Source: Treponema sp.
GTDB lineage: Bacteria > Spirochaetota > Spirochaetia > Treponematales > Breznakiellaceae
Direction of reading: 5' to 3'
Assembly: GCA_031273325.1 (NCBI GenBank)
Contig: JAISSB010000027.1
Coordinates: 1-33,871 of the forward strand
Length of the DNA: 33,871 nt
The number at the start of each line of letters is the position of its first letter. The first letter of the stretch is position 1. Under the pieces are notes generated by a model. That model saw only the letters and a program-made list of their open reading frames with translations. It searched no databases and was not told the DNA's origin. Positions 8,512 through 25,116 of this stretch are shown piece by piece. The translations under genes were made by a program, and so were the position numbers.

Positions 8512-8660
8512 TTTTTTAGAATGTATTCTCCGAGTTTTAGAATGTATTCTACAAGTTTTAGAATGTGTTCTACAAGTTTTAGAATGTATTCTACAAGTTT
8601 TAGAATGTATTCTACAAGTTTTAGAATGTATTCTACAAGTTTTAGAATGTATTCTACTAA
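8512..8660. repeat. 21-bp tandem array A3 with phased inverted repeats
   Basis: Seven copies, with AGAATGT beginning at 8518, 8539, 8560, 8581, 8602, 8623 and 8644 (one reads AGAATGTGTTC), so the period is exactly 21 bp. Each typical copy carries the inverted repeat TAGAAT-GT-ATTCTA. The array lies in the divergent region between flhF (minus) and the RseC-like gene (plus). The minus-strand open frame across it is an artefact of the period. Confidence 0.95.
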
Positions 8661-11854: not shown

Positions 11855-11928
11855 TGGGCCCACCTGGACTTGAACCAGGGACCTACGGATTATGAGTCCG
11901 CAGCTCTAACCAACTGAGCTATGGGCCC
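11855..11928 (-). tRNA. tRNA-Ile2 (anticodon CAU, lysidine type)
   Basis: The cloverleaf is complete: acceptor stem GGGCCCA/TGGGCCC (perfect 7 bp), D arm GCTC..GAGC, anticodon loop CTCATAA and T arm CCTGG-TTCAAGT-CCAGG. Anticodon CAU is at 11892-11894. GACTCATAATC in the anticodon arm is typical of the AUA-reading isoleucine tRNA that needs TilS lysidine modification, not of initiator or elongator Met tRNA. The CCA end is not encoded. polA begins 13 nt downstream on the same strand. Confidence 0.9.
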
Positions 11929-13348: not shown

Positions 13349-13419
13349 ATTTATCCTCGCTTTTTAATAATTATATACAGCTAAATATAGCTCATGCGTA
13401 GCTAAAAATGACTCATCTT

Positions 13420-14003
13420 CAGAGGTCTGTCCCCGTACAGAGAAAAAAAGACTTCTTCTGCCGGAGAAGCCCTCTATTAAATACAAACTTATTCTAAGAG
13501 ATTATCTTTCGTTTTCTTAGTTCTTCTTCATTGCCTTCTTAAAATCAGAGGTCTGTCCCTGTGTAGAGAAAAAAGACTTTCCCACCGGAGAAGCCCCCTA
13601 TTAAATACAAACTTATTCTAAGAGATTACCTTTCGTTTTCTTTACTGCCTTCTTAAAATCAGAGGTCTGTCCCCATGGAGAAAAAAAGACTTCCCTCGCC
13701 GGAGAAGCTCTCTATATAAATACAGACTTGTTCTAAGAGATTATCTTTCGTTTTCTTTACTGCCTTCTTAAAATCAGAGGTCTGTCCCCGTTCAGAGAAA
13801 AAAGGTTTCACTCATCTTCAGAGGTCTGTCCCCTTATGGAGAGAAAAAAGACTTCTTCTGCCGGAGAAGCCCTCTATTAAATACAAACTTATTCTAAGAG
13901 ATTATCTTTCGTTTCTTTTACTGCCTTCTTAAAATCAAAGGTCTGTCCCTTGTGTAGAAAAAAAAGGCTTCCTCGCCGGAGAAGCCCTCTACTCTTCTTA
14001 GGT
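13420..14003. repeat. Six-copy cluster of ~115-bp repeats, each with a terminator-like hairpin
   Basis: Copies begin with CAGAGGTCTGTCCC (last copy CAAAGG..) at 13420, 13546, 13660, 13775, 13819 and 13936; full lengths are 114-126 bp, while the fourth (44 bp) and the last (about 68 bp) are short. On the minus strand each full copy reads GGGGACAGACCTCTG, an open tail KKAVKKTKDNLLE with a stop (KKAMKKN with a stop in the first copy), then a hairpin with GGCTTCTCCGG and a T-run. The last copy has GGCTTC and GAAGCC around the loop followed by eight Ts. They look like amplified gene ends with terminator. Confidence 0.9.
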
Positions 14004-14802: not shown

Positions 14803-14910
14803 ATTCGCTGTTTTTTTGCTCCTTTTGAGGATATATCCCTTCAACAAATATCGGCAAAAATTTTGCCAATGATAAGAGAAACCACTTTAATGGACGGAGA
14901 GACCATTTTA

Positions 14911-15107
14911 GAAGTCTTGGAATATATTCCAGAAGTCTTGGAATACATTTTAGAAGTCTTGGAATACATTCCAGAAGTCTTGGAATACATTCCAGAAGTC
15001 TTGGAATACATTCCAGAAGTCTTGGAATACATTCCAGAAGTCTTGGAATACATTTTAGAAGTCTTGGAATACATTCCAGAAGTCTTGGAATACATTCCAG
15101 AACTTGT
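14911..15107. repeat. 21-bp tandem array A4 with phased inverted repeats
   Basis: Nine copies, with GGAAT beginning at 14919, 14940, 14961, 14982, 15003, 15024, 15045, 15066 and 15087: an exact 21-bp period. Most copies carry TGGAAT-AC-ATTCCA; some have ATTTTA in the right arm. On the opposite strand the unit matches array A3 at about 15 of 21 positions. Both flanks contain a related GGAGAGACC(A/G)TTTT string (14896 and 15127). The array lies upstream of the GC-rich gene; the plus-strand open frame across it is not considered real. Confidence 0.95.
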
Positions 15108-20386: not shown

Positions 20387-21421
20387 ATGAATATGACGCA
20401 CAAAGCAGAATTACTCTGTATCGGCAACGCTCTGATCGATATATTCGCTACTGTTCCGGAGCATTTTTTTGCACAGTATGCACTCAGCCAGCCGGCACAA
20501 CACTGTGACTATCACACGGTCATGCATATACTCGAAGCTATCCCTCAATACACGGTATGTTCCGGCGGAGGGGCAGCGAATGTTGCAAAGATTGCTGCAC
20601 ATGTAGGGATACGAACCGCATTTGTCGGGACTGTAGGGAGCGATAAGGCGGGTTCTTTAGACACGTTTGGGACACAGTTTTCCACAGAGTTAAGAGCAGC
20701 AGGCGTTACCCCCTTTTTACAAACTGTGTCAGAACCGACCGGTATTTGTGTACTGCTGAAAACTAAAACAGGAAAATCGCGCATCGTTGCCTGTCCTTCG
20801 GCGGCGCTTAAGCTTGAATCGGTTCCGGAAGAACTCGTGAATGGGATAAACCTGCTCGTACTCGAAGGATTTATTCTCGATCATGTGCATATACTGCAAC
20901 CGATTTTAACTATAGCGGAAAAACAAGGGATTCCCATTGCCCTTGATGGAGGTTCTCCGCTCATCGTACAACAGTATGCGCGGCAACTGATTAACTATTG
21001 CCGAACTTATCCTTTTTTGCTCTTTATGAACGAAGCTGAAGCTAACGCGTGGTATGAAACGGTGGGGAGCGATTATGAAGACATGTATGCGTTTATTAAA
21101 TCGCTGACAAAAGAAGGCGGTTTCCCGATCATTGCGGTCAAATTAGCAGGACGCGGCGCAAAAGTTTTTGCAAACGATTGCGAATACCATGTCGGGACAA
21201 CCTTTCTTGTTTCCAAAGAAAGTACGGGCGCCGGCGACGCATTCTGTGCGGCGTTCATTAGTGCGTGGCTTCAGAACCGATCTATTGAAAAATGCACCTC
21301 CCTTGCAAACAAAGCGGCAAGCATCGTGCTTAACGTGCCGGGAACTGCACTTGGAACACACGAAAAAGTACAACTAAGCAAACTATTATCCCCCTCGTTC
21401 CATGTATTCACATCCGCATAA
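20387..21421 (+). CDS. PfkB-family carbohydrate kinase, possibly KDG kinase
   Basis: A 344-residue ribokinase-fold kinase. The N-terminal GNALIDI, the substrate-loop signature CSGGGAANVAK (58-68) with AFVGTVGSDKAG, and the anion-hole/catalytic motif STGAGDAF (279-286, Asp284) are visible. The N-terminal part resembles adenosine-kinase-like members, but the position 6 bp after uxuA favours phosphorylation of 2-keto-3-deoxygluconate, the UxuA product. Substrate assignment is therefore by context. TAGG precedes the ATG at 20387; the ATG two codons later is an alternative start. Repeats begin 10 bp after the stop, and no clear terminator is seen. Confidence 0.8.
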   Translation: MNMTHKAELLCIGNALIDIFATVPEHFFAQYALSQPAQHCDYHTVMHILEAIPQYTVCSGGGAANVAKIAAHVGIRTAFVGTVGSDKAGSLDTFGTQFSTELRAAGVTPFLQTVSEPTGICVLLKTKTGKSRIVACPSAALKLESVPEELVNGINLLVLEGFILDHVHILQPILTIAEKQGIPIALDGGSPLIVQQYARQLINYCRTYPFLLFMNEAEANAWYETVGSDYEDMYAFIKSLTKEGGFPIIAVKLAGRGAKVFANDCEYHVGTTFLVSKESTGAGDAFCAAFISAWLQNRSIEKCTSLANKAASIVLNVPGTALGTHEKVQLSKLLSPSFHVFTSA

Positions 21422-21430
21422 TCCCTCTCC

Positions 21431-21530
21431 CGATCAACGGGGACAGACATCTAATTTATGAAGACAGATTTCTGACAAACGGGGACAGACCTTCACGAAG
21501 AGACTGTCCTCCATAAACGTGACAGTCTTC
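21431..21530. repeat. Two-copy 42-bp family piece followed by a hairpin
   Basis: GACAGAC recurs at 21442 and 21484, exactly 42 bp apart, with CGATCAACGGG in front as in array A6. Directly after it, GAAGAGACTGTC (21497-21508) pairs with GACAGTCTTC (21521-21530), leaving a 2-nt bulge. There is no T-run. Confidence 0.85.
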
Positions 21531-21569: not shown

Positions 21570-22215
21570 ATTTAAAAAGCTCTTTCACGACTCTCTAAAG
21601 CTTTTTTACAACTCTGTAAAACTTTTTTGCGACTCTCTAAAATCTTTTCATAACTTCGTAAAGCTTTTTCAGGACTCTCAAAATCTTTTCATAACTTCGT
21701 AAAGCTTTTTCAGGACTCTCAAAATCTTTTTCAGGACTCTCTAAAACTTTTTTAGGACTTTGTAAAGTTTTTTTACGACTCTCTAAAGCTTTTTTACGGC
21801 TCTCTAAGACTTTTTTATGATTCTCTAAAATTTTTTCACGATTCTTTAAAGCTTTTTCATAGCTCTCAAAAACATTTTCAGGACTCTTTAAAGCTTTTTC
21901 AGGATTCTCAAAAATATTTTCAGGGCTCCCTAAAGCTTTTTCAGGACTCTTTAAAGCTTTTTCAGGACTCTCAAAAACATTTTCAGGACTCCCTAAAACA
22001 TTTTCAGGACTCCCTAAAACATTTTCAGGACTCCCTAAAACATTTTCAGGACTCCCTAAAACATTTTCAGGACTCCCTAAAACATTTTCAGGACTCTCTA
22101 AAACATTTTCAGGACTCTCTAAAACATTTTCAGGACTCTCAAAATCTTTTTCAGGACTCTCAAAAGCTTTTTTAGGACTCTCAAAAACTCTTTCATAACC
22201 CCCTAAAACTCTTTT
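21570..22215. repeat. 21-bp tandem array A5 (~30 copies)
   Basis: About 30 copies of a 21-bp unit around AGGACTCCCTAAAACATTTT; the copies at 22000-22130 are nearly identical and those at the left end are diverged (AAAGC, AAATC and AAAAC variants). The core AAAA-CA-TTTT is an inverted repeat with a 2-bp centre. The minus strand is open across the array (heptapeptide ENVLGSP), but it starts at a TTG without a ribosome-binding site and has a proline in every heptad, so I do not call a gene. Confidence 0.95.
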
Positions 22216-22350
22216 ACCCTTCAAAAAAGCTGTTTCACTGGCGTTGGGGACACGGTGAGAAAAGGGAAACAAGGGGCAAGTAGGCTTTTTTGCACAAAAG
22301 CTTCGGTGCAAAGCTTAAAGGGGAAAGGGAGGCAATGGGCGGGTGAGCTT

Positions 22351-22985
22351 GCAGGCAGATTCTCGATTAATGGGGACAGACCTCTAGTTCACAAAGGCAG
22401 ATTCCCGATCAATGGGGACAGACCTTTAGTTCATAAAAGCAGATTCCTGATTAATGGGGACAGACCTTTAGTTCATAAAAGCAGATTCCCGATCAACGGG
22501 GACAGACCTTTAGTTCACAAAGGCAGATTCCTGATCAATGGGGACAGACCTCTGAGTCTTACAGACAGATTCTCGATTAACAGGGACAGACCTCTAGTTC
22601 ACAAAGGCAGATTCCCGATTAACAGGGACAGACCTTTAGTTCATAAAAGCAGATTCCTGATCAATGGGGACAGACCTTTAGTTCACACAGGTAGATTCCT
22701 GATCAACGGGGACAGACCCTTAGTTCACAAAGGCAGATTCCCGATCAATGGGGACAGACCTCTGAGTCTTACAGACAGATTCCTGATTAATAGGGACAGA
22801 CCTCTAGTTCACACAGACAGATTCTCGATCAACGGGGACAGACCTCTAGTTCACACAGGCAGATTCCCGATCAATGGGGACAGACCTCTGAGTCAGAACA
22901 GCAGATTCCTGATTAATGGGGACAGACCTCTGAGTCACAAGGTCAGATTCCCGATCAATGGGGACAGACCTCTGATTGAGAAATA
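22351..22985. repeat. 42-bp tandem array A6 (15 copies, GGGGACAGACC family)
   Basis: Fifteen copies of a 42-bp unit containing AGATTC, GATYAAY and GGGGACAGACC. GACAGA at the start of each 21-bp half in some copies shows the unit is a diverged dimer. Two tail types alternate: CTAGTTCACAAA and CTGAGTCTTACA. Within the first 30 positions nearly all differences are transitions, many at CpG steps (AACGGG against AATGGG or AACAGG). It lies 65 bp before the chemoreceptor gene, and its plus-strand frame is open from a GTG at 22255 to 22986. Confidence 0.95.
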
Positions 22986-23049
22986 AAACGCTTTCTCTCC
23001 AAGACCCACTTATGCTACTATGCAACTATCTTAACATGAGGGAACTATC

Positions 23050-25116
23050 ATGCAGTTAGCACCTAAAATTTCTTTGCTGATCGGCGTATTGGTATTCATG
23101 ATCTCGCTGGGTATTGGCAGCGCAGCCGTTATTGTTTCGTTAAGAGTCGTCGAGGAAATCGCATATTCGGCACTGCTCAGTCAGGCAGATTCGAGTGCGT
23201 TTATAGTCTCGGCCGAAATAGAAGCGCAACTCGCCGTCCTTCAGGAATTGGCGAACCGGATACGGGTGCGTACGATGAACTATGAGGAACAGCGCGAAGC
23301 ATTGCTCCCGGATATAGACCGCCTCGGATACTTGGATTTCGGCATTGCTGATATGCAGGGACATGTGCGCTATGTGAAAGAAAGCAATACGACGGCCGAC
23401 CTTTCACACCGAGACTATGTCAAGCAAGCTCTCGCAGGGAGAGCGGCAGCTTCAGACGTTCTAATCAGTACCGTTATCAATGCGCCGGTGATAATGCATG
23501 CAGTTCCTATTACAAACGATGCAGGAACAGTGGTCGGCACGCTTATCGGGAGAAAAAACAGCACCGCAATAACCGATTTTGCTCAATCAATACAGCTCGG
23601 CGACAACGATTATATCTTTATGGTCGATCACACGGGAAACGTGATCTCGCACACAAACGTCGAGCTGGTGATAAATCAGTACAATCCGATCAACGATCTC
23701 GACCCGAACAATGCCGAACTCAGACGCACCGTTCAAAGAGCGCTTGAACAAAAGCACGGGACGGCTCAATACAGCTTTTCCGGACGCGATATCATCGTCG
23801 GCTACAGTCAGGTTCCCGGCTTTTCGTGGATCCTCTTCGTCACTATGGATAGAGGAGAGCTGCTCACTGTAACGGACAATCTCAGAAACACTATTATTAT
23901 TATCGGCCTCGCGTTCCTGATCATCGGGATCGTCTGCGCTTATATTATCAGTGCGTCTATTACCAAACCAATCGTCTATTTATCGCGCATTTTGAAAGAT
24001 GTTGCGGCCGGAGACCTTACGAAGACCTATACCTTTAAATCCCGTGACGAGATCGGCGATATGGTGCGCTACTTTAATCAAACTATTGAAACTATAAAAC
24101 TGCTTATAAGCGACATTAAAGATCAAACGAAAGCTTCAAGTGATATTGGTACTGTCTTGTCGGTTACCGTCAATAAAACAGCCGTGTCCATTGATCAGAT
24201 CGTGGAGAAGATTCACAGTATTCAACAGAAAATACAAAATCAATCGGATTCGCTCCAAGAGATAGACACTGCTATGACCGATATTATCGGCGTCATTCAC
24301 CATGTGACCGATGCTATTAATCACCAAGCAACGCGCATTAGCCACTCGTCTGACGCTATCAAACAGATGCTGGGCAATGTAGACTCGGTACGGAAAACCT
24401 TGGTTACGAACATGAACGATGTGAGCAGTTTGTCAGAATCGTCTAAAGTCGGACAAGAAAGTATTCTTGAGGTTGTTCAAGATATACGGACAATGACTAA
24501 AGAATCAGAAGGGTTACTCGCGATCAACAGTATTATAGAAAATGTTGCAAATCAAACGAATCTCCTTTCGATGAATGCTTCTATTGAAGCTGCCCATGCA
24601 GGAGAAGCGGGAAAGGGTTTTGCCGTTGTTGCAGGTGAAGTACGGAAATTAGCTAAAAATGCAGCAGACCAATCAAAGGTGATTGCTAATACGTTAAACA
24701 CTATTAAGGATGCAATCAAAGAAATTACTGGATCAACTGATTCCGTTCTCAATAAGTTTGAACTGATCGATAATAAAATTACGGTCGTTTTAAAGCAGGA
24801 AGAACAGATTAACCGGGCAATAGATAACCAAGGAGCAGAAAGCTCTCTTATTTTGGAATCGATGCATGACTTAACGGACATTACCCACGACGTACATGAC
24901 GGTTCAAAATCTATTTTGCAAAAAAGCACCGTGATCGATTCCAGCACGAAAAATATTGCACGTATGGCGCATGCCATTATCGAAGGGATGCACGAGATGA
25001 TACAAAATACAGAAGAAATAGACAGTGCCGTAAAAAACGTACAAGAAATCAGCATTAATAATAAAGAAAATATTGATACCTTAGTGCAAAAAGTGTCCCG
25101 CTTTAAGGTTATTTAA
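23050..25116 (+). CDS. Methyl-accepting chemotaxis protein, dCache type
   Basis: A 688-residue transmembrane chemoreceptor. The first membrane segment is about 7-31, the periplasmic double-Cache sensor about 35-275 (with YIFMVDHTGNVISHTN and FSGRDIIVGYSQVPGFSW), and the second segment about 281-303. A HAMP domain follows (SITKPIVYLSRILKDVAAGD). The signalling tip includes NQTNLLSMNASIEAAHAGEA and GKGFAVVAGEVRKLAKNAA, reaching about 535. It passes ligand signals to CheA through CheW and so biases flagellar rotation. GAGGGAA precedes the ATG by about 6 nt. The gene stands directly after the 1.4-kb double array A5/A6, with only 65 bp for its promoter. The ligand cannot be told. Confidence 0.95.
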   Translation: MQLAPKISLLIGVLVFMISLGIGSAAVIVSLRVVEEIAYSALLSQADSSAFIVSAEIEAQLAVLQELANRIRVRTMNYEEQREALLPDIDRLGYLDFGIADMQGHVRYVKESNTTADLSHRDYVKQALAGRAAASDVLISTVINAPVIMHAVPITNDAGTVVGTLIGRKNSTAITDFAQSIQLGDNDYIFMVDHTGNVISHTNVELVINQYNPINDLDPNNAELRRTVQRALEQKHGTAQYSFSGRDIIVGYSQVPGFSWILFVTMDRGELLTVTDNLRNTIIIIGLAFLIIGIVCAYIISASITKPIVYLSRILKDVAAGDLTKTYTFKSRDEIGDMVRYFNQTIETIKLLISDIKDQTKASSDIGTVLSVTVNKTAVSIDQIVEKIHSIQQKIQNQSDSLQEIDTAMTDIIGVIHHVTDAINHQATRISHSSDAIKQMLGNVDSVRKTLVTNMNDVSSLSESSKVGQESILEVVQDIRTMTKESEGLLAINSIIENVANQTNLLSMNASIEAAHAGEAGKGFAVVAGEVRKLAKNAADQSKVIANTLNTIKDAIKEITGSTDSVLNKFELIDNKITVVLKQEEQINRAIDNQGAESSLILESMHDLTDITHDVHDGSKSILQKSTVIDSSTKNIARMAHAIIEGMHEMIQNTEEIDSAVKNVQEISINNKENIDTLVQKVSRFKVI

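Follow-up and report, generated by a model that had tools for sequence, protein, structure and literature searches.

Origin of a 42-bp satellite array in a Treponema genome, probably from the end repeats of a RAYT/TIRYT-type Y1 transposase

INTRODUCTION

What sequence does an extragenic tandem array in a bacterial genome grow from, and what sets the length of its unit? This question is raised by an array of 42-bp units found in a 33,871-nucleotide stretch of Treponema sp. DNA (contig JAISSB010000027.1, positions 1 to 33,871; hereafter, the window). A preliminary description of this array, based on its sequence alone, regarded the unit as a dimer of 21 bp that decays by cytosine deamination, perhaps at methylated sites. 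Here we relate the array to the transposase genes of the same genome and of its relatives and consider how it may have grown.

RESULTS

Layout of the array and its surroundings

The array lies between a PfkB-family kinase gene (end at 21421, + strand) and a dCache chemotaxis-receptor gene (start at 23050, + strand). The following features of the window are referred to below.

22351 to 22985, + strand: array of 15 copies of the 42-bp unit
22372 to 22382, + strand: first copy of the core GGGGACAGACC, which recurs every 42 bp
22255 to 22986, + strand: open frame of 243 codons with a 14-residue repeat (GDRPLVHKGRFPIN), judged not to be a gene
21430 to 21497, + strand: detached, more diverged units of the 42-bp family (CGGGGACAGACATCTAATTTATGAAGACAGATTTCTGACAAACGGGGACAGACC), read directly
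127 to 481, - strand: another array of this 42-bp family, in the opposite orientation to the first; halves identical at 12 of 21 positions
13419 to 13971, - strand: direct repeats of 115 to 161 bp with one core each (reading GGTCTGTCCC[CT] on the + strand)
21576 to 22215, + strand: 21-bp array of unrelated sequence (AAAACTTTTTCAGGACTCTCT), flanked by two blocks of core units

Fifteen units follow each other in exact register from 22354 to 22983, at a spacing of exactly 42 bp (14.8 copies according to TRF), which bears out the count in the preliminary description. Each unit consists of a diverged 21-mer (GRCAGATTYYYGATYAAYRGG) and a 21-mer that resembles the end of RAYT transposase genes (GACAGACC...), with the core GGGGACAGACC spanning the boundary between these halves. 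The string GACAGACC is unchanged in all 15 units; AGG replaces the preceding GGG in units 6, 7, and 11. Two more of the earlier observations stand: GACAGA opens both halves in several units, specifically in 3 of the 15 (units 6, 11, and 12), and two alternative tails are mixed along the array, TAGTTCAYAMA in 10 units and TGAGTC... in 4, the last unit being a hybrid of the two. The second array, at 127 to 481, shows a higher-order period of 126 bp (3 × 42).

The direct repeats at 13419 to 13971 adjoin a sugar-transporter-like gene. The window also contains 21-bp arrays that are unrelated to the RAYT-end core, at 1 to 126, 8514 to 8657, 14910 to 15102, and 21576 to 22215; those at 8514 and 14910 represent one family. 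An Rfam search over the window returned a tRNA at 11855 to 11928 as its sole match.

The core and the RAYT transposase genes

The draft genome of this organism (G000; 1.82 Mb) contains 1,255 exact copies of GGGGACAGACC (670 + 585), compared to a single copy of the reversed-pattern control; as the draft consists of 103 contigs, several of which end in arrays, copy numbers are uncertain and array lengths unreliable. Other genome statistics come from a 976-kb sample of G000 (L022 to L081 plus the window) that favors contigs with arrays or RAYT genes. In this sample, only 24 of 810 cores are found inside long open reading frames, which make up 75% of the sequence, and 97% are outside.

G000 yields 33 matches to the Y1_Tnp domain. 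One of the proteins, P0001, is recognized as a REP-associated tyrosine transposase (NF047646; 93.7 bits with a cut-off of 80), also matches PF01797, and contains HIH and YINQNP motifs, matching the Y---NP signature of class 2 RAYTs (PMC6006769). A domain search of its 165 residues detected Y1_Tnp only and no C-terminal helix-turn-helix, and for lack of that extension the protein was not assigned to subclass 2.1 (RAYT group 1), the subclass of the TIRYTs (PMC6006769). Named RAYT relatives in public genomes come mostly from metagenome-assembled genomes of Treponema.

Cores flank the full-length RAYT genes at both ends in 18 of 23 cases in G000, in 10 of 16 in the sister species G001, and in 11 of 13 in the sister species G002, against 1 to 1.5% for random placement. 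Its position is characteristic of each genome: ~59 bp upstream and ~20 bp downstream of the gene in G000, ~93 bp upstream of the gene and at its 3′ end in G001, and ~100 bp upstream (inverted) and ~19 bp downstream of the gene in G002. The flanking ends are mostly direct in G000 and inverted in G002 and in L122, a contig from the public genome of another spirochaete. On this evidence, GGGGACAGACC is the end sequence of RAYT genes and, judging from its position, would be a recognition site of the transposase. An unchanged core next to a freely varying remainder is what one would expect of a binding or cleavage site; recent common descent would also fit. G002 (L083 to L089) carries many copies of compact RAYT elements, the two ends of which are inverted GGGGACAGACC sequences ~620 bp apart. 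The upstream end of these elements is often a doublet, GGGGACAGACC...GGGGTCAGACC, with a spacing of 43 to 44 bp, and 21-bp arrays are absent.

Relationship of the two halves

By letters, the halves of the main array agree at 7 to 12 of 21 positions per unit and at 8 of 21 in the consensus (shuffle P = 0.11, not significant); the earlier figure of about 12 of 21 was an overstatement. The signal lies in the purine/pyrimidine class, which is the same at 20 of 21 positions (P = 4.5 × 10^-5). In the array at 127 to 481, the agreement extends to 12 of 21 letters (P = 0.002) and 19 classes, and letter identities of 11 to 13 of 21 are seen in many sister arrays. Half-to-half identity in 14 related arrays of the genome sample, which have a common ancestry and do not constitute 14 independent tests, averages 10.9 of 21 at a shift of 21 vs 5.0 at other rotations.

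The origin of the halves is settled better by intermediates than by such identity statistics. At L024:8962-9033, successive 21-bp steps read GGGGACAGACCTCTGAATTAT, GGGGACAGATTTCAGAATTAT, and GGAAACAGATTCCCGAATTAT, a series intermediate between the two halves, and GGGGACAGATT units are found 21 bp from a normal core in L042 and L078. Hence, the CAGATT half is most plausibly a copy of the CAGACC half that has drifted, and the sequences support a unit that would have grown by doubling of a 21-mer. What the preliminary description called dimerization of the same 21-bp system thus holds for the dimer as such, given the class agreement and the intermediates, but not for its source, which is the RAYT-end 21-mer; the neighboring 21-bp arrays are unrelated in sequence. 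A special constraint on purine/pyrimidine class was considered and rejected: transitions and transversions between halves are split 12:1 here, which does not differ significantly from 87:42 in other arrays (P = 0.11).

Gaps between same-strand cores in the sample peak at 19 to 23 bp (167 of 721) and at 41 to 44 bp (200 of 721). Among the sister species, G001 has gaps of 21 and 42 bp, G003 of 21 and 24 bp, and G002 of 42 to 44 bp only. The last of these genomes is what lends some appeal to a different origin of the 42-bp unit, as the natural 42- to 44-bp spacing of a two-part transposase end, with the likeness of the halves due to convergence or chance: 21 of 37 core gaps in G002 are 41 to 44 bp and none are 19 to 23 bp, and these pairs occur without arrays and without a middle core, partly at the upstream end of RAYT genes, several of them directly upstream. 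Some 42-bp arrays in G001 also have a dissimilar second half, and the letter identity in the main array is weak. However, convergence or chance would have to account for the class agreement at 20 of 21 positions, the letter identity of the sister arrays, and the 21-bp series that grade from one half into the other, and G000 itself has the 167 short gaps. We consider this origin rather unlikely, although the 42-bp period may come partly from the transposase end itself.

Variation among the units

Two other explanations bear on how the units vary. The open frame runs across the entire array and could be taken for a gene encoding a repeat protein, with its 14-residue repeat under selection. However, a unit length divisible by 3 lets an open frame persist easily; variable columns are about equally frequent among third positions (7 of 14) and among first and second positions (11 of 28), with no sign of purifying selection, and among 20 of the 42-bp arrays with a length of 120 bp or more, 10 lack an open frame. 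A coding repeat was rejected on these grounds and must be considered extremely improbable.

Decay through deamination of methylated CpG cytosines, the model of the preliminary description, is also very unlikely, if slightly less so. Its claim that variation consists almost entirely of transitions is correct for the first 30 columns (335:14 transitions to transversions by pair differences, 9:1 by columns) and fails in the last 12 (5 transition and 6 transversion columns; Fisher P = 0.06 for the contrast). Over the entire unit, the ratio is 14:7. Codon alignments of the RAYT paralogues in G000, a control outside tandem repeats, give the same ratio (269:130 by column; 2.5 at fourfold sites). An equal excess in non-repeat DNA, the outcome that the preliminary description had itself set against its model, is thus what was found. 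Non-RAYT dispersed duplicates show a lower ratio, 1.0 to 1.5, and do not serve as the main control because they are probably coding paralogues under selection. Between adjacent units, the ratio is 7.9 in the main array and 3.5 for all 42-bp core arrays taken together, 2.1 in other 21-bp arrays, and 1.4 in other 22- to 23-bp arrays, and the transition excess is therefore mild at most. The changes are not concentrated at CpG steps, either: C/T at columns 11 and 18 and G/A at column 19 do involve CpG in some units, but these are the only variable columns among the first 30 that ever do, and the majority never do. The genome shows no CpG depletion (observed/expected ratio of 1.13), and transitions per compared base amount to 0.22 at CpG and 0.17 at other sites in core arrays, outside the core; the corresponding values for other 21-bp arrays are 0.070 and 0.079. 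The array drifts with the ordinary transition bias of the genome, and a CpG effect is absent.

Growth and homogenization of the arrays

The main array has a five-unit (210-bp) periodicity (P = 0.0026 at lag 5, one of eight lags examined), and units are more alike outside the core within arrays (24.2 of 30 positions) than between them (18.1 of 30), a pattern of concerted evolution. Both results support the earlier suggestion that variants spread by exchange. Altogether, the 976-kb sample contains 69 chains of 42-bp core spacing with up to 28 chained units. Relatives of the flanking genes in the sister species, compared in a search for an empty site, are 44 to 67% identical and lie on different contigs.

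We regard the array, with a probability of about 80%, as a higher-order satellite that consists of end repeats of a RAYT/TIRYT-type Y1 transposase and that expanded through unequal exchange or slippage. Under this scenario, a 21-bp piece with the transposase-end core would have been duplicated in tandem, with recombination or slippage between near copies giving rise to arrays of 21-bp monomers. One of two neighboring copies may then have changed by drift from ...ACAGACCTCTGA... to ...ACAGATTYCYGA..., with the core retained in the other, and the resulting 42-bp dimer would have been amplified and homogenized within arrays by unequal exchange or slippage. Higher-order blocks would have come next, by duplication of a 210-bp segment at 22351 to 22985 and as 126-bp blocks at 127 to 481, and the 42-bp family would have dispersed to many extragenic sites. 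The match between the core and RAYT ends, the doubled 21-mer with its intermediates, the higher-order structure, and the extragenic placement are parts of this scenario that were observed directly; nicking by the transposase may feed the growth of the arrays.

The 21-bp period in the genome and in relatives

Tandem arrays occupy 8.9% of the sample. Period 21 (92 arrays) and multiples of it prevail among them: of 147 arrays with periods above 30 bp, 51 have a period that is an exact multiple of 21. A separate class of 35 arrays has a 23-bp period. Single-linkage clustering resolves at least 27 families of 21-bp arrays that are unrelated to each other. The core is missing from nearly all of these families, and the RAYT end alone therefore does not explain the period. 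A common purine/pyrimidine template behind these families was rejected, as the best matches between pairs of them were on a par with those obtained after shuffling the units. Inverted repeats are more common in 21- and 23-bp units than in shuffled ones; half of the 23-bp families (e.g., L070:1-754 and L046:11075-11695) have inverted repeats with 6-bp arms vs 3% of shuffled units. No papers on 21-bp repeats in treponemes were found in the literature searched.

A core lies within 60 bp of 81% of the non-core arrays with 23-bp periods and 40% of those with periods that are multiples of 21 bp, vs 14% of random extragenic sites; the value of 30% for non-core arrays of other periods makes the excess for the 21-bp multiples modest. 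In G006 (L167 and L168), a member of another genus (g4), the motif upstream of RAYT genes is GTGCCAGA[GC]A (GTGCCAGASA; 400 copies, control 9), and gaps are mostly 19 to 22 bp in runs such as C3:23878-24351 and C9:17980-18259 and 42 bp at C12:14609-14996, so that a spacing of ~21/42 bp has recurred around a different core. Arrays of the 21-bp type are absent from G002 despite its 46 RAYT matches, and relatives free of RAYTs likewise have few or none. The number of families, the share of exact multiples, the recurrence around another core, and the proximity of cores to other arrays are hints that, in these spirochaetes, a RAYT-type single-strand nuclease, or replication trouble at its ends, drives tandem amplification of DNA in its vicinity, with steps of ~21 bp that correspond to two turns of the helix, and so yields satellites of many unrelated sequences. 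We offer this idea tentatively, as one that is more likely wrong than right.

DISCUSSION

The array provides a testable case of transposase-end repeats becoming satellites in a bacterium, with monomers, dimers, higher-order forms, intermediates, and an array-free sister species all found in one genus. The common 21-bp period, in a sample of which ~9% consists of tandem arrays, and its recurrence in another genus pose the question of what sets the repeat length in bacteria.

The closest known counterparts are the TIRYTs (Di Nocera et al. 2013, PMC3733652; PMC6006769), Y1 RAYT-like genes whose flanking repeats have GGGGWSAS in common and form families of moderate abundance that are also found as dimers or clusters away from the gene. 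Here, too, GGGGACAG fits GGGGWSAS and lies at a fixed distance from a gene for a Y1 RAYT transposase, and end repeats are also found away from the gene in dimers and clusters (1,255 cores and 69 chains). Unlike those of TIRYTs, the end repeats here form satellites, with chains of up to 28 units and a 21/42-bp period, the flanking ends in the window's species are mostly direct instead of inverted, and the protein is short (~170 amino acids), with Y1_Tnp alone and no C-terminal helix-turn-helix detected. The REP/REPIN/BIME sequences of E. coli and Pseudomonas and their RAYTs are similar in that hundreds of short extragenic repeats are tied to a tyrosine transposase gene and that tandem clusters are known; however, the units described here have no GTAG at a fixed place and only a 4-bp dyad, CAGA-NN-TCTG, whereas GTAG REPs have a stem of at least 5 bp.

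Eukaryotic higher-order satellites such as alpha satellite grow from monomers through dimers to multimeric higher-order repeats that are homogenized within arrays and divergent between them. By analogy, the Treponema arrays would follow the same order from monomer to multimer, with the same homogenization within arrays, but in a bacterium, on a scale of hundreds of base pairs per array, with a 21-bp monomer, and with no centromere.
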